Positions 12,583-39,531 of a DNA stretch of 64,000 bases are shown in pieces (the stretch's first letter is position 1; each line of letters starts with the position of its first letter). The notes below the pieces were generated by a model, which was not told where the DNA came from, ran no database searches, and saw only the letters and a list, made by a program, of their open reading frames with translations. The DNA lies in the IMG/VR virus record IMGVR_UViG_3300035210_000189, positions 62,001 to 126,000 of that record. One strand, written 5' to 3'. The position numbers and the translations under genes were made by a program. The DNA comes from a virus.

Positions 12583-13074
12583 ATGTCAAACAATCATGAA
12601 ATCGAAAATCTTGAAGATAAAATTTTCACGACCTTACGCCGTCACGGGAACTATTCGATCCCTAAAAATGCGGTAAACATTTATGCACCTATCCTTACTT
12701 TGCTGACTAAAATGAGTGAAGATGGCTTGGTTGTGCAAAGTGAAAACCCTAATAAGATCATTTTCACTACTACCGAAAAAATGGCACAGACTGTCATTAT
12801 TCGTGGGGTGACTGCAGATAAAGTCCGCACAGGATTTCACCTTTGTCGTCAAAAGAATGATGAAGTTGTCGCACAGGTTAATGCTCGTAACCGTGAAGTT
12901 TATATCAAGGATATTGACTTTCTTGGTGTTGTTCAATCTGTGGAAACAAAAGAAGTGCCTGCTAATATTTGGGAAAAGCTGACTTTTAGAAAAAACAGCT
13001 TGAAAACAGTGATTAAATTCAAATACAAAACACTGGTGGTGTCTCCTGAAACTGAATTGATGAAAGTTCGTTAA
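12583..13074 (+). CDS. unknown protein with possible winged-helix N-terminus
   Basis: A 163-residue protein after GGAGG. The first 65 residues (helix, P-K-N-A turn, helix T-L-L-T-K-M-S-E-D-G-L-V-V-Q, then I-I-F-T-T-T strand) have the spacing of a winged helix-turn-helix, but this is a judgement by eye. The basic C-terminal half is probably beta-rich. It could be a DNA-binding regulator. Confidence 0.6.
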   Translation: MSNNHEIENLEDKIFTTLRRHGNYSIPKNAVNIYAPILTLLTKMSEDGLVVQSENPNKIIFTTTEKMAQTVIIRGVTADKVRTGFHLCRQKNDEVVAQVNARNREVYIKDIDFLGVVQSVETKEVPANIWEKLTFRKNSLKTVIKFKYKTLVVSPETELMKVR

Positions 13075-26092: not shown

Positions 26093-26491
26093 ATGAAAAT
26101 AAATGAAGAATGGATTACTGAAGTTACTCGAATTAATGGTCTATACCAAGAATTTAAAGGCAGTGTATTATTGTTTCAAAATACCCGTGTTGTAAAAGCA
26201 TTTCTTAAACGACCATCTTTCATATTTCATAAGCTGTATCGTAGCTCGCCTGCCATGTTCGAAAAAGAGATTGAACAATTTAAAAAATTAGATACAAGCC
26301 ACTATACATTGACGACCGCCGAGTTGTCTCGTTTTAGTGAGTTGTGTGCAAAAGGTTACTCACCTTTAAATGCAGTTATCTACAAAAATAAAGGCAGCAA
26401 GAGCTATTTAACAACGATTAAAACAAAAAGAAAACGTATGCATTTAGGGTTGGCTATTGTCCTCACCCCTTTTTTTGGATACCTACGTTAA
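26093..26491 (+). CDS. unknown basic protein
   Basis: A 132-residue basic protein; the last 15 residues (L-G-L-A-I-V-L-T-P-F-F-G-Y) are hydrophobic after a K-T-K-R-K-R-K-type cluster, which could be a membrane-touching tail. GAGGC lies eight bases before ATG. Function unknown. Confidence 0.65.
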   Translation: MKINEEWITEVTRINGLYQEFKGSVLLFQNTRVVKAFLKRPSFIFHKLYRSSPAMFEKEIEQFKKLDTSHYTLTTAELSRFSELCAKGYSPLNAVIYKNKGSKSYLTTIKTKRKRMHLGLAIVLTPFFGYLR

Positions 26492-26509
26492 AAAAATTAA
26501 AAAAAGGTC

Positions 26510-26538
26510 TTGAATACGGTTGAAAGGTTTGCTAGAAT
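26510..26538 (+). promoter_or_regulatory. promoter of tRNA-like RNA (26587)
   Basis: TTGAAT, 17-base spacer, TAGAAT, followed by leader hairpin ACATTGAA (26543)/TTCAATGT (26563). The same promoter and leader design is used by tRNA-Cys. Confidence 0.75.
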
Positions 26539-26586
26539 GGCTACATTGAATGAGACGACAGCTTCAATGTCACTCAGAATTGTAAC

Positions 26587-26708
26587 GCGGGTGTGTGAGT
26601 GTAATAGGAGAGTTGGCCTTCCGTCCTTGAATAAAGGTTGCTCTACCGTTAAGGCGTGCGTGCCTTGCAACATCGGTAACGTAGGTTCAAATCCTGCCAT
26701 CTGCACCA
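26587..26708 (+). ncRNA. tRNA-like RNA with enlarged 5' half and encoded CCA
   Basis: The 3' end is a normal tRNA end: GTAGG TTCAAAT CCTGC, CATCTGC, A, CCA (26681-26708). GCGGGTG at 26587-26593 pairs with CATCTGC using two wobbles. Leader length to 26587 equals that of tRNA-Cys, supporting this 5' end. Between them are about 88 bases, far more than a D plus anticodon arm. Helix TACCG (26644)/CGGTA (26674) encloses AAGGC/GCCTT with loop GTGCGT; GTTGC (26637)/GCAAC (26667) would make a pseudoknot. Confidence 0.6.
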
Positions 26709-26716
26709 AATTGTTG

Positions 26717-26745
26717 TTGTGTTGAAACTTGTTTTATGCTACAAT
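26717..26745 (+). promoter_or_regulatory. promoter of odd-loop tRNA
   Basis: TTGTGT, 17-base spacer, TACAAT. The 5' leader then holds a long hairpin (TTAAC...GTTAA, 26761-26790, with GAAATG/CATTTC) and a second, weaker one before the tRNA. Confidence 0.65.
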
Positions 26746-26839
26746 GATTTAAGTTGAGAATTAACCGAAATGCTGGATCATTTCTGTTAAAAGTAGGTGA
26801 TTCAGGTAGACCTAGCTTCTTCTCTTACTCTGAACCAAT

Positions 26840-26913
26840 CGGTGAAACGCTCAAATGGTGAGCAAATGGTGTTGTAACCATACTCGTGGGTTCAAGTCCT
26901 ACTTCACCGGCCA
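26840..26913 (+). tRNA. tRNA with non-standard anticodon loop, identity uncertain
   Basis: A 74-nt tRNA with CCA: acceptor CGGTGAA/TTCACCG, discriminator G, D-arm GCTC AAATGGT GAGC, T-arm GTGGG TTCAAGT CCTAC. The anticodon hairpin cannot form five pairs plus a seven-base loop. It is either ATGGT/ACCAT with six-base loop GTTGTA, or ATGG/CCAT with eight-base loop TGTTGTAA. Possible anticodons are UGU (Thr) or GUU (Asn; discriminator G fits Asn). An eight-base loop could read four bases. Confidence 0.7.
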
Positions 26914-26919
26914 AATTAC

Positions 26920-26948
26920 TTGATTGTTGTGATGACTTGTGGTATAAT
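26920..26948 (+). promoter_or_regulatory. promoter of RNA unit 1
   Basis: TTGATT, 17-base spacer, TATAAT; expected start about 26955. Confidence 0.75.
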
Positions 26949-26954
26949 CATCCC

Positions 26955-27210
26955 ATCAAACGAATTCGGAGCCTTCGCCATAGAGGGTTGGACAGCAGCG
27001 GTGTCGCGGGCAAGCTGTCACGAAAGGTGAGAATCAACTCCCTTTCATAGTAATGAAGTGCATCAGAGATGAGTTTTTCTCTTGATTAAAACGCTTGGGT
27101 GAAGCGGCCTTTGTTACGAACTTGATTGTCAATTAGCGAAGGAATTATAGTCCTAGTGGCTATGATTAAAACGGTTAGGTGGACTGGCCTTCGTTAAGAC
27201 CAAATTAAAA
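26955..27210 (+). ncRNA. repeated structured RNA, unit 1 (two three-way-junction modules)
   Basis: Begins with AAACGAATTCGGAG. Helix GACAGC (26991)/GCTGTC (27014) caps a conserved loop AGCGGTG...CGGGC. A second hairpin AAAGG (27023)/CCTTT (27041) follows. Next come two copies of a module: GTAATGAAG (27050)/CTTTGTTAC (27109), and AGCGAAGG (27135)/CCTTCGTT (27188). Each encloses one hairpin, the string GATTAAAAC, and a five-pair hairpin with loop [GA]GGTG. Unit 2 repeats the design with compensating base changes. RNA class not recognised. Confidence 0.7.
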
Positions 27211-27212
27211 GG

Positions 27213-27241
27213 TTGTTATTTACAGGTGGTTGATGTATAAT
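27213..27241 (+). promoter_or_regulatory. promoter of RNA unit 2
   Basis: TTGTTA, 17-base spacer, TATAAT; expected start about 27248. Confidence 0.75.
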
Positions 27242-27247
27242 AGCGGT

Positions 27248-27460
27248 CAGTTAAACGAATACGGAGAACCACTTAAATGGTTCTGAATGGTAGCGGTGGT
27301 CGGGCGAGCCATTGTAAGAAGGAGAGGTGATTTCTTAGTCCCTCTCTTAGCAACAAGGGCATTGTGGGTGCTGTTTTCCTCGATTAAAACGGTTGGGCGA
27401 ACCGGCTCTTGTTGCAAACCCTATTCCAAAGAGTTGTCGATGACAGCTTTTTTTCTTTTT
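27248..27460 (+). ncRNA. repeated structured RNA, unit 2 (one three-way-junction module)
   Basis: Begins AAACGAATACGGAG like unit 1. It has hairpin GAACC/GGTTC (27266-27283), helix AATGG (27286)/CCATT (27309) with loop TAGCGGTGGTCGGGCGAG, hairpin GAGAGG (27322)/CCTCTC (27341), and module stem GCAACAAG (27350)/CTTGTTGC (27408). The module encloses GATTAAAAC (27382) and hairpin CGGTT GGGCG AACCG. It ends in terminator GTTGTC/GACAGC plus T-run (27433-27460). Base changes relative to unit 1 preserve pairing. Confidence 0.72.
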
Positions 27461-27479
27461 AACAGTGATGGAGATTGTC

Positions 27480-27692
27480 ATGATTGAGAATAACGAATTT
27501 GCAACTGAGTATGCTGGTCAGCTTGTTTCTTACCTGACGGCTGAGCAACGACAAGCTGTCTTTGCTCATATTGAAACGTTGTTTGATAAAGATGCCATTG
27601 CTTGTATGAAGGCTGATGCTCAGCAGATTGTTGAAATGCGTGCGGATATGGATCGTCGTCTTGCTGCAATGGACGCAAAAACAGCAGTATAA
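27480..27692 (+). CDS. small helical protein within RNA island
   Basis: A 70-residue acidic, helical protein (about half Ala, Glu, Asp, Met). ATG 27480 follows TGGAGATTGTC, the common leader here; an in-frame GTG 15 bases upstream is rejected. It lies just after the terminator of RNA unit 2 and just before a tRNA-like RNA, with no strong promoter of its own, so read-through or processing is likely. Function unknown. Confidence 0.65.
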   Translation: MIENNEFATEYAGQLVSYLTAEQRQAVFAHIETLFDKDAIACMKADAQQIVEMRADMDRRLAAMDAKTAV

Positions 27693-27707
27693 GCTACACC
27701 TTTTTAT

Positions 27708-27782
27708 TGCCGAATAATCATAGGGGAAGCAGGTAACTGTGTAATCTATGATGTCGTAGGCTAGTCCCTACTTCGGCGGCCA
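27708..27782 (+). ncRNA. tRNA-sized RNA with CCA and a single long arm
   Basis: Seventy-five bases ending in encoded CCA. TGCCGAA (27708) pairs with TTCGGCG (27772), discriminator G. T-stem GTAGG/CCTAC has a six-base loop CTAGTC that lacks the usual TTCRA. In place of the D and anticodon arms is one seven-pair helix, ATCATAG (27717)/CTATGAT (27746), with a 22-base loop containing CAG-GTAA-CTG. It cannot be a working canonical tRNA; it resembles RNAs at 19377 and 26587. Confidence 0.55.
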
Positions 27783-27787
27783 GATTT

Positions 27788-28010
27788 GCTGTAGGCTCTT
27801 GTAGCCTGTCCGACCGGGTTGTGACCGGGCAGAACCAGACGGTTCCCACCTTTGGGTGGAGTCGATAAGGCATAGGTAATCGGTTCCTATTACAGTGATG
27901 AATTTTAGAAAGAAGAAGTTAAAAAGACGAAGATAAAAAGATGAAGATGTAATTGCAAGCGGCTTGAACCGTGCGAAGAAAGAGGAAAGGCTTACGTTCC
28001 TACTTGCAAC
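27788..28010 (+). ncRNA. structured RNA: four-way and three-way junctions
   Basis: After hairpin AGGCT/AGCCT (27793-27807), CGAC (27811)/GTCG (27861) encloses three hairpins: CGG/CCG (27815-27827), GAACC/GGTTC (27832-27845) and CCACC/GGTGG (27846-27859). ATAGG/CCTAT follows at 27872-27890. A purine-rich linker (about 27905-27950) leads to TTGCAAG (27953)/CTTGCAA (28003), which encloses CGG/CCG and AGGAA/TTCCT hairpins. No open reading frame explains this. RNA class not recognised. Confidence 0.55.
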
Positions 28011-28060
28011 TTTTAATTAAACTTAAAGAGAGATATAGATTATGCCTACATACGAGAGAA

Positions 28061-28111
28061 TCTGGACACGATTATAAAATGTTAACCCTAGGAGGGTCAA
28101 TTATGTCCAGA
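28061..28111 (+). promoter_or_regulatory. ribosome-site sequestering structure
   Basis: TCTGGACA (28061-28068) is the exact complement of TGTCCAGA (28104-28111), which contains part of the start codon at 28103. Inside, ACCCT (28085)/AGGGT (28093) with loop AGG traps the AGGAGGG ribosome site (28090-28096). Both elements would block translation of the 56-residue gene until opened by ligand, protein, cleavage or temperature. Confidence 0.65.
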
Positions 28112-28273
28112 AGTGTAAAAGGTAGTAAAGGTTGTGGTTATGAGTATTGGTCGAAACGTCCAATGTGCTATTCTTCTCCCGGTCGTTGGGCCAAGCAGAA
28201 ATGCCATCGGATTGAAAGACAGCAAGACAAAGATTTGATTAGAGCTGAACTTAAAGATTGTCACGATCTTTAA
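28103..28273 (+). CDS. small basic Cys-containing protein
   Basis: A 56-residue basic protein: S-R-S-V-K-G-S-K-G-C-G-Y-E-Y-W then K-R-P-M-C, a G-R-W-A-K-Q segment, and a charged helix. The K-G-S-K-x-x-G-x-[ED]-Y opening followed by a late R-R-E/I-E-R helix reminds me of small proteins common in large phages, from memory only. The strong AGGAGGG site is buried in RNA structure (see 28061). Probably RNA-binding by charge and location. Confidence 0.75.
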   Translation: MSRSVKGSKGCGYEYWSKRPMCYSSPGRWAKQKCHRIERQQDKDLIRAELKDCHDL

Positions 28274-28279
28274 TCGTTC

Positions 28280-28432
28280 ACACAGAGCAAGACCTGCATT
28301 AAGCTAAGACTGGCAGCTTGATACGGGAATTATACCGGCCCAGCGGTTTAGCAGAGCGATAGGAGCAATCCTTGACCGTAGAAGCAGTGATAATCGGTGA
28401 CTTGGTGGTGGAAATAGCAACCACATAGTACA
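28280..28432 (+). ncRNA. structured 3' region
   Basis: No coding signal. Hairpins AAGCT/AGCTT, CGGT/ACCG (enclosing AGGA/TCCT) and GTGGT/ACCAC can form between the small gene and the terminator. It could be a 3' untranslated region or the last part of the RNA island. Confidence 0.4.
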
Positions 28433-28463
28433 AAAAAAAGACTTCTTCGGAAGTCTTTTTTGT
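28433..28463. terminator. bidirectional intrinsic terminator
   Basis: GACTTC/GAAGTC stem with TTCG loop flanked by A-run and T-run, between converging transcripts. Confidence 0.9.
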
Positions 28464-28467
28464 TTGT

Positions 28468-29100
28468 TTACATTTTAAATTTTCTTTTGTTTTCACTTTT
28501 TGGCTTTGGTGTTTCTCTGTTGGCTAACAAATTAATCCACTGCGTGTCTTCACGGCCTTGTTTGTCAGCACCATGATACAATTTCACATCACCAAACAAT
28601 TTCGAATCTTCAAGTATTTTTGATAATTCTGGTATGGTGTAGTAGCTGAAAAACCTTCCTTTTGGATCGCTAGATTCACCTTCACCACTTTTGAAGCTTG
28701 CATAGATCTTTCCGCCTTCTTTCATGCTGTCAGCAATTTTCAATAAAGTGGTTTTCAATTCTTCTTTGTTCAAGTGCAACAATGACGCCATACACCACAC
28801 ACCATCAAACTCACATTTCCAGTTTATTTCTGAGAAGTCTTTGTGTTCAACTTGTACACCAGAATTGCTTTTTGCTATTTCAACTAGTTCTTTGGAAGCA
28901 TCCATGCCTTGCACATTGAAGCCAAGATTTTTGAAAGCGATTAAATCACGTCCTGAACCACAGCCAGCGTCTAAGATCTTTGCCCCAGCAGGCATGTTCT
29001 TGGTAAATTCCTTGTGGAGATCGGATATGTCCAAGTTGATAGTGCTTTGAGCATATTCATCAGCATTCTTATTGTAGTAATCTATTGTCTCTTTATTCAT
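28468..29100 (-). CDS. class I SAM-dependent methyltransferase
   Basis: A 210-residue Rossmann-fold methyltransferase. Motif I is I-L-D-A-G-C-G-S-G-R-D (about residues 41-51), followed by an acidic strand end G-M-D-A-S and motif IV-like F-D-G-V-W-C-M-A-S-L-L-H-L. This layout matches small-molecule methylases of the UbiE/TehB type. The C-terminal 15 residues are Lys-rich and extra. Substrate unknown. Confidence 0.88.
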   Translation of the reverse strand: MNKETIDYYNKNADEYAQSTINLDISDLHKEFTKNMPAGAKILDAGCGSGRDLIAFKNLGFNVQGMDASKELVEIAKSNSGVQVEHKDFSEINWKCEFDGVWCMASLLHLNKEELKTTLLKIADSMKEGGKIYASFKSGEGESSDPKGRFFSYYTIPELSKILEDSKLFGDVKLYHGADKQGREDTQWINLLANRETPKPKSENKRKFKM

Positions 29101-38326: not shown

Positions 38327-39531
38327 GAATCCCCCTTCCTTCAGGTAGGGGATGAATTTCAACCATGCTCTTGACTTTTGTTATTTTCTCAATATAATCA
38401 ACCACATGATTAAAACATTCCAATATAAAATTAAAACTGGGAAGATTAATTCTTCCGATTGTCGCTGGCTTTCTCAAAAAGCCAGTTCCATTAACTATAT
38501 CTGGAATTATTGCAACGATGCCCAAAAGCATAAACTTAAATGGGACAGTCAAAAAAAGTGGTTAAGTGGTTTTGATCTTAGTTCCATGTGCGGTGGTGTA
38601 TCAAAAGAAATTGGCTTACATTCACAAACAGTCCAAGCTGTTTGTGAAGAGTATGCCAATAAACGCAAAGCAAAGAAAAAAGCCTATTTACGTTATCGTA
38701 GTTATAAAAAATCACTGGGTTGGATTCCTTTTAAAACAACGGGAATTAAGTTTGATCCTGATAATCAATCTTTTACCTATCAAAAACGTGAGTTTAAAGT
38801 GTGGTATAGGCGTGAGATTCCGGCTGATACCAAGATTAAAAGTGGTAGTTTCTGCCAAGATAATTTAGGCCATTGGTACATCAACATCGTTGTTGATATA
38901 CCCGAGGTTAAACGCACTCAAAAACCGACTGCAGAAGTGGGTATTGACCTTGGCTTAAAAGATTTAGCTGTTCTTTCGGATGGGAAAGTCATTCCTATCT
39001 TCAAATACTATCGAAAAAACGAGAAAAGACTTGGATTGGCTCAACGAGCCAATAAGAAAGGTCAAGTTAAAAAAATACACAAGAAAATTGCTAATTCACG
39101 AAAAGATTCAGCGTTTAAAATCGCTAATGATCTTGTGAAAAATTACGCTTTAATTGTGGTAGGAAACGTGAGTCCATCAAAACTTGGTAAAACCAAAATG
39201 GCTAAGTCAGTTTATGATGCAGGTTGGACACTTCTAAAAAAGCAGGTTGAGTATTTAGCGATTACGCACCAATCCGTATTTTTAGAAGTGAATGAAAGTT
39301 TTACAACCCAAGCTTGTTCGTCTTGTGGAAATAGGACGGGGCCGAAAGGCTTAAAAGATCTTGGAATAAGAGAATGGAAATGCCCAGTATGCAATACTGT
39401 TCATGACAGAGATGTAAACTCTGCGAAAAACATTCTCCGTATCGGACATGATACGCTAGAAGTAGGAATCCCCTTCCTTACCGCCTAACGGCGGCAAACA
39501 TTTTTAATGTTTGAGGTGGGGAGGATGTCAA
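38327..39531 (+). mobile_element. IS200/IS605-type element carrying only tnpB
   Basis: Left end starts with GAATCCCCC and hairpin ATCCCC/GGGGAT (38329-38353). The right end after the tnpB stop has CCGCC/GGCGG (39481-39494) and AAACAT/ATGTTT hairpins. GAATCCCC followed by TTCCTT occurs at both ends. There is no tnpA, so it would need one in trans. Ends are placed by restoring the interrupted frame; an exact A-run makes them uncertain by a few bases. The right end should encode the guide RNA scaffold. Confidence 0.8.
38406..39488 (+). CDS. tnpB: TnpB RNA-guided nuclease (IS605 OrfB family)
   Basis: A 360-residue TnpB, start placed at M-I-K-T-F-Q-Y-K. It has an N-terminal basic region, RuvC motif I G-I-D-L-G-L-K-D-L, zinc finger C-S-S-C-G...C-P-V-C (about residues 306-328), and final RuvC Asp in D-R-D-V-N-S-A-K-N. 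The second RuvC motif reads V-V-G-N-V-S, where most TnpBs have E-D/N-L; this variant is widespread, and a Glu in E-V-N-E-S-F may substitute. Known family role is RNA-guided DNA cleavage favouring element retention. Confidence 0.92.
   Translation: MIKTFQYKIKTGKINSSDCRWLSQKASSINYIWNYCNDAQKHKLKWDSQKKWLSGFDLSSMCGGVSKEIGLHSQTVQAVCEEYANKRKAKKKAYLRYRSYKKSLGWIPFKTTGIKFDPDNQSFTYQKREFKVWYRREIPADTKIKSGSFCQDNLGHWYINIVVDIPEVKRTQKPTAEVGIDLGLKDLAVLSDGKVIPIFKYYRKNEKRLGLAQRANKKGQVKKIHKKIANSRKDSAFKIANDLVKNYALIVVGNVSPSKLGKTKMAKSVYDAGWTLLKKQVEYLAITHQSVFLEVNESFTTQACSSCGNRTGPKGLKDLGIREWKCPVCNTVHDRDVNSAKNILRIGHDTLEVGIPFLTA

Follow-up and report, generated by a model that had tools for sequence, protein, structure and literature searches.

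Huge phages have yielded few known families of structured RNA. The closest described systems are the stable RNAs of phage tRNA islands, among them GOLLD, ROOL and T4 RNAs C and D, for which no function is known. GOLLD is an ornate RNA of phages and prophages frequently located near tRNA islands; many of its members exceed 800 nt, and it forms a 14-mer cage (PMC12286853). ROOL is likewise phage-encoded and frequently found near tRNA islands (PMC12286853). Other structured RNAs present in phages include the manA and wcaG motifs (PMC2864571).

The locus described here lies in a stretch of 64,000 nt (the window) from a 152,440-bp virus fragment, in which the original prediction had recognized one three-way-junction RNA module repeated three times. 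The locus almost certainly belongs to a structured RNA family. The module itself is real, but it represents only half of a larger two-domain RNA, and either domain can stand alone.

Two Paralogous RNAs and Their Relatives

The window encodes two paralogous RNAs, RNA-A (about 26955-27200) and RNA-B (about 27248-27455), each with its own sigma70-like promoter. Common to both is a 5′ domain, D1, composed of helices P2, P3 and P4, and helix P1 closes the whole. RNA-A consists of P1, D1 and copy 1 of the three-way junction domain D2, followed by a free D2 copy 2, and RNA-B of P1, D1 and D2 copy 3; copies 1 and 3 form the 3′ halves of RNA-A and RNA-B, respectively. The 5′ domain, the closing stem P1 and the surrounding promoters and terminator had been missing from the original description of the module. 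Predicted unit length, from promoter to terminator or tRNA, is about 140-250 nt.

The module was located by a pattern scan of IMG/VR. Both domains are present in four close relatives (L020, L024, L029 and L037), and a divergent 437-kb phage (L026, L040) carries three D1-D2 units plus one lone D2 (L040). On a bacterial MAG contig (C124, L138), D1 and D2 are separated by 23 kb and each precedes tRNA genes; the two domains are therefore separable. This contig has PHROG matches and, within 46.5 kb, at least twelve tRNA genes, and so probably derives from a phage and was sorted into the MAG during binning. The family is found in three independent phage lineages. Its features in the window are as follows.

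26920 to 26948, + strand: RNA-A promoter, sigma70-type (TTGATT-17-TATAAT, extended TG); spacer and -10 conserved in L020, L024, L029 and L037
26962 to 26969, + strand: RNA-A P1, 5′ strand (GAATTCGG); pairs with 27121-27128, 6 of 8 pairs, in a hand-chosen register
26970 to 26989, + strand: RNA-A P2 of D1 (7 bp, 6-nt loop); 100% paired, two-sided changes in 5 of 7 pairs
26991 to 27019, + strand: RNA-A P3 of D1 (6 bp) with the conserved loop AGCGGUGUCGCGGGCRA; RNAalifold, covariation
27022 to 27046, + strand: RNA-A P4 of D1, with a bulged U; two units of L026 lack P4
27050 to 27117, + strand: D2 copy 1, three-way junction; single folding, R1, covariation
27121 to 27128, + strand: RNA-A P1, 3′ strand; pairing with 26962-26969
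27133 to 27197, + strand: D2 copy 2, free-standing three-way junction after RNA-A P1; single folding, R1, covariation
27213 to 27241, + strand: RNA-B promoter, sigma70-type (TTGTTA-17-TATAAT); conserved in relatives
27257 to 27264, + strand: RNA-B P1, 5′ strand (GAATACGG); pairs with 27419-27426, 7 of 8 pairs
27265 to 27284, + strand: RNA-B P2; folding, covariation
27286 to 27313, + strand: RNA-B P3; RNAalifold, covariation
27322 to 27346, + strand: RNA-B P4, with a bulged U; pairing
27350 to 27415, + strand: D2 copy 3, three-way junction; single folding, R1, covariation
27419 to 27426, + strand: RNA-B P1, 3′ strand; pairing with 27257-27264
27428 to 27452 or 27459, + strand: RNA-B intrinsic terminator; in the MFE structure alongside P1 and D1-D2

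Upstream of D2 copies 1 and 3, the repeated pattern comprises GAATnCGG, P2 with its 7 bp and 6-nt loop, the 6-bp hairpin P3 and P4. P1 joins the 8-nt start to a CCnnATT-like sequence 3′ of the junction, with 6-7 of 8 pairs in most copies; its evidence is weaker, since the register was chosen by hand and contains one to three mismatches. Folding z-scores are -3.4 for RNA-A and -4.3 for RNA-B, and the MFE structure of RNA-B holds the terminator, P1 and the complete D1-D2 together.

This coexistence, with no overlapping alternative pairing, does not look switch-like and makes it unlikely that the RNAs are riboswitches or attenuators, in which ligand sensing would set terminator read-through into the next gene (the 75-aa ORF at 27465-27692, or the ORF after L040). 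Such a role would suit the layout of RNA-B and L040, each of which has a terminator and then an ORF, with no strong promoter separating the RNA-B terminator from the 75-aa ORF, and aptamers often fold as three-way junctions with conserved linkers. However, most copies do not lie upstream of an ORF: the terminator-ORF layout is missing from RNA-A, from L026 unit 3 and from the copies linked to tRNAs, and in L037 a tRNA-like gene separates the terminator from the ORF.

The Three-Way Junction Domain

Each of the three segments folds on its own into the three-way junction that had been proposed, with the quoted stems, loops and GATTAAAAC box all present where they had been placed. Copies 1, 2 and 3, folded singly, have MFEs of -20.3, -23.0 and -26.0 kcal/mol and z-scores of -3.0, -4.0 and -3.4 against dinucleotide shuffles. 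The domain runs from outer stem P5 (8-9 bp) through the variable hairpin P6, unpaired UAAAA, hairpin P7 and a short GC/GCU linker back to the outer stem. At the base of P6, AU[U/C] is paired with [G]GAU; P7 has 5 bp and an RGGYG loop, which reads GGGUG, AGGUG or GGGCG.

Some boundaries differ from those first drawn. The outer stem of copy 2 exists but is longer, its 9 bp spanning 27133-27197 instead of 27135-27195. The box formerly regarded as a linker is present, but its true linker is only UAAAA: within GAUUAAAAC, GAU forms the base of the variable hairpin together with AU[U/C] on the 5′ side, and the final C is the first base of P7, the 5-bp hairpin. GG[C/T] does follow that hairpin, but its first G closes the hairpin.

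The resemblance of GAUUAAAAC to the ends of CRISPR repeats, no more than a lead, is the sole point in favor of a CRISPR-repeat mimic (an RNA anti-CRISPR), whose variable hairpin and GAUUAAAAC would imitate a crRNA repeat with a AUUGAAAC-like handle. We give this reading next to no likelihood: the sequence of P6 is free to vary while the next hairpin and the closing stem are conserved, D1 has no counterpart in a repeat, and no array was seen.

A ribosome decoy is also very improbable. Here, the RGGYG loops and the AGGUGA of P4 would pair with the 16S anti-Shine-Dalgarno sequence UCACCU, as the loops GGGUG, AGGUG and GGGCG and the AGGUGAU within RNA-B P4 might suggest. What disfavors such pairing is a C at the fourth loop position of copy 3, L020 B and L026 unit 1, where the match to 16S is broken; moreover, most of the P4 segment is base-paired, and two units have no P4.

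Covariation, Strand and Noncoding Status

In an alignment of 15 distinct D2 sequences, which was fitted to the model and is thus biased toward structure, and whose related members are not independent, 94.5% of cells are paired, compared with 78.1 ± 1.2% in shuffles. The covariation score is 0.594 versus 0.248 ± 0.023, with none of 500 shuffles as high, and sliding the registers lowers the paired share to 20-51%. Two-sided changes occur in 16 of the 22 pairs, all nine outer-stem pairs included, in keeping with the earlier observation that the outer stems differ in sequence while remaining paired. D2 stems differ also between paralogues of the same genome and between distant phages. For P2 and P3 (9 sequences), pairing is complete (100%), 10 of 15 pairs show two-sided changes, and again 0 of 500 shuffles does as well. 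RNAalifold, run on a plain MAFFT alignment with no structure supplied, returns the same P2, P3 and D2 helices. These results bear out the proposed selection on RNA structure. A column-pair scan for pseudoknots (11 sequences, three lineages) found no clear extra helix, and the apparent signals mirror the split between A and B paralogues.

G-U pairs occupy 44 cells in D2 and 19 in P2/P3, and neither alignment has an A-C pair, which identifies the + strand as the RNA, in agreement with the direction of the promoters and terminator. RNA-A and RNA-B are 89-91% identical to the copies in L024 and L037, and several flanking stretches are 74-83% identical. Coding is ruled out as the cause of this conservation because indels of 1-2 nt separate the copies, no frame stays open across the phages and those flanking stretches reach only 74-83%.

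Searches for Further Copies

Two covariance models were built, R1 for D2 (12 training copies) and R2 for P2-P3 (9 training copies), from whose training the MAG copies and the lone D2 of L040 were left out. In the 64-kb window, R1 matches exactly three places, all of them in the training set (E 4e-21 to 4e-17). Each close relative yields three R1 matches and the 437-kb phage four; for R2 the numbers are two per close relative tested and three for the 437-kb phage. Untrained copies are recovered as well: R1 finds the L040 D2 with 46 bits and the L138 D2 with 42.6 bits (E 5e-8 in a 3.6-Mb genome), and R2 finds D1 on the same MAG contig as the latter (C124; 38.7 bits, E 1.9e-7).

Prokaryote genomes were scanned with the module pattern, and at least one convincing copy, L138, is among the matches listed; of the at least 116 prokaryote-contig matches listed, most fail the hairpin or closing-stem test. 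Several candidates were rejected. L201, which matches the D1 pattern plus GATTAAAA, is coding sequence and is recognized by neither R1 nor R2. L163-L169 and L205-L229 are short matches to the P3 loop without the remainder of D1 or D2, and L184 (E 0.016) matches only in part, in an AT-rich region that resembles coding sequence. The GATTAAAAC box is missing from L230, whose 26.7 bits are no more than expected by chance for 301 genomes, and a match in Acinetobacter MD-2021a falls inside an acyl-CoA dehydrogenase gene.

The locus, an L026 unit, a 35-nt consensus, the L138 D2 and the C124 D1 were compared by blastn with 50,697 annotated phage records and gave only chance matches, a result to be read with the weakness of BLAST for diverged RNAs in mind. 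Plasmids gave no blastn match, E. coli genomes searched for host mimicry gave chance matches only, and R1 and R2 found nothing credible in ten named phage records and T4. A 56-aa ORF at 28103-28273 of the window has a DNA match to the jumbo Pseudomonas phage D6 (70% identity, E 5e-8), the sole phage match of the 24-30 kb stretch.

Genomic Setting and Proposed Role

The locus lies within an RNA island that has an Rfam tRNA at 26840-26910, and tRNAs are found beside the L026, L138 and C124 copies. Intrinsic terminators follow RNA-B and L040. In the 437-kb phage, the tRNA-Cys of L026 unit 2 (at 769) begins 3 nt after P1, and on the MAG contig the C124 D1 stands directly before a tRNA-Arg that begins immediately after P1. 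The L138 D2 is at the predicted start of a transcript into tRNA-Asn and a tRNA with a CUA anticodon.

Other elements were observed around the locus and its homologs. At 26560-26712 of the window is a tRNA-like RNA with acceptor GCGGGTG/CATCTGC-ACCA, a T-arm (GTAGG TTCAAAT CCTGC), a large unusual body and its own promoter-like site (26510-26538); ARAGORN does not call it, and it is about 82% conserved in L024 and L037. The Rfam tRNA (34.2 bits), missed by ARAGORN, follows a possible structured leader of about 90 nt, and this whole segment (26751-26913) is missing from L024 and L037 by BLAST. A minimal tRNA-like element at 27719-27790 has acceptor GCCGAA/TTCGGC followed by GCCA, with one hairpin in place of the D and anticodon arms; another, of about 52 nt (GGTGAA/TTCACC-AGCCA), lies on the minus strand of L024 near 2450-2497. 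A run of GC-rich hairpins at 27790-27900, conserved in relatives, is possibly another structured RNA. A second candidate RNA at 28280-28435 (L242 440-595) ends in a strong terminator; part of it (28354-28427) is matched at 75% (E 9e-8) in the 437-kb phage, just downstream of the third D1-D2 unit. In L037, a tRNA-like gene at 12640-12820 (acceptor GCCCTA/TAGGG plus CCA), split by an insert of about 130 nt, separates the RNA-B terminator from the 75-aa ORF.

Among the proteins, the window encodes a TnpB-like protein (38352-39488; Cas12f1-like TNB and OrfB_IS605 domains), and the phage-like MAG contig with D1 and D2 has a transposase of the same PHROG (L203 14765-16045). Adjoining the operon of D2, tRNA-Asn and tRNA(CUA) is a protein (L138 3239-4414) that is 33% identical to the cysteinyl-tRNA synthetase of Sinorhizobium phage Phosso.

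Judged from sequence, the best explanation is a new family of stable noncoding RNAs whose 3′ end would come from a terminator or an adjacent tRNA and which have roughly an even chance of acting in trans through a partner. Transcription would start at the sigma70-like promoters. The 3′ end would be set by the intrinsic terminator in RNA-B and L040, or by an RNase P cut at the 5′ end of the tRNA abutting P1 in L026 unit 2 and the C124 D1. The resulting stable RNA may act in trans through its invariant single-stranded parts, namely UAAAA in the junction, the P7 loop RGGYG and the loop of P3, as a surface that could bind a phage or host protein or RNP, the partner probably belonging to the RNA-processing or translation machinery.

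The main rival to trans action is a role in cis within tRNA transcripts, which is possible although distinctly less probable. D1, D2 or both would then be leaders of phage stable-RNA operons, placed at the start of untranslated tRNA transcripts, that aid antitermination, protect the tRNA precursor or assist its processing, and discrete RNAs would be by-products. The position of the L138 D2 at its predicted transcript start and the direct continuation of the C124 D1 into tRNA-Arg and of L026 unit 2 into tRNA-Cys fit this explanation. RNA-B and L040, however, each stop at an intrinsic terminator that no tRNA precedes, a further D2 and then a fresh promoter come after RNA-A, and most tRNAs of these phages have no upstream R1 or R2 match.

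For action in trans, the presence of D1 and D2 on separate transcripts (C124) and of lone D2 domains (L040, copy 2) fits recognition elements and not one rigid machine. A less probable extension is a new functional class of phage RNA, in which the two domains, as one molecule or as two transcripts, would be matured by the tRNA-processing machinery and would dock mutually or on a shared host or phage target to reprogram host RNA processing or translation.

Compactness, two separable domains, clear covariation and the natural occurrence of single-domain variants make the family more amenable to probing than GOLLD or ROOL. Each domain could be made singly and serve as tagged bait, with the natural variants showing which part matters. 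R1 and R2 also provide a means to annotate such RNAs, whose sites current pipelines report as empty intergenic DNA.

Comparison With Known RNAs

Searches with Rfam 15 (cmscan of the window, of 26450-28480 and of the homologous loci) gave tRNA only above threshold and nothing else credible, which agrees with the first impression that the class was unfamiliar. The GOLLD and ROOL models match neither the window nor the homologous loci. The original prediction had named a lack of covariation, or a match to either of these families, as outcomes that would count against it, and neither occurred. In the T4 genome, the best hits of R1 and R2 (E 0.81 and 0.44) both lie outside rnaC/rnaD (70908-71171). 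Although the setting in phage tRNA islands is the same, it is thus extremely unlikely that the RNAs are diverged members of a known family such as GOLLD, ROOL, T4 RNA C/D or another Rfam entry: Rfam yields tRNA alone, R1 and R2 miss the T4 genes, and the units are far shorter than GOLLD or ROOL.

Specific differences separate each of these systems from the RNAs described here. The manA and wcaG motifs typically lie in 5′ UTRs of metabolic or exopolysaccharide genes, and the RNA-A/B family has no Rfam match. T4 RNAs C and D (rnaC and rnaD; species 1 and 2) are noncoding RNAs of 139 and 119 nt located by tRNA-Arg in the phage tRNA cluster, but RNA C has a T-arm-like 3′ end, which the RNA-A/B family lacks. 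ROOL, an RNA with multiple pseudoknots that assembles into an octameric cage, shares the phage and tRNA setting but is of far greater size. GOLLD also shares the phage setting near tRNA genes, whereas its universally conserved 3′ region and length of often over 800 nt have no equivalent in the RNA-A/B family, with its units of about 140-250 nt and its other fold. On the evidence of its sequence, RNA-A/B is a previously undescribed phage noncoding RNA family with its own two-domain fold, and it is of the same general kind as the other structured RNAs of phage tRNA islands.
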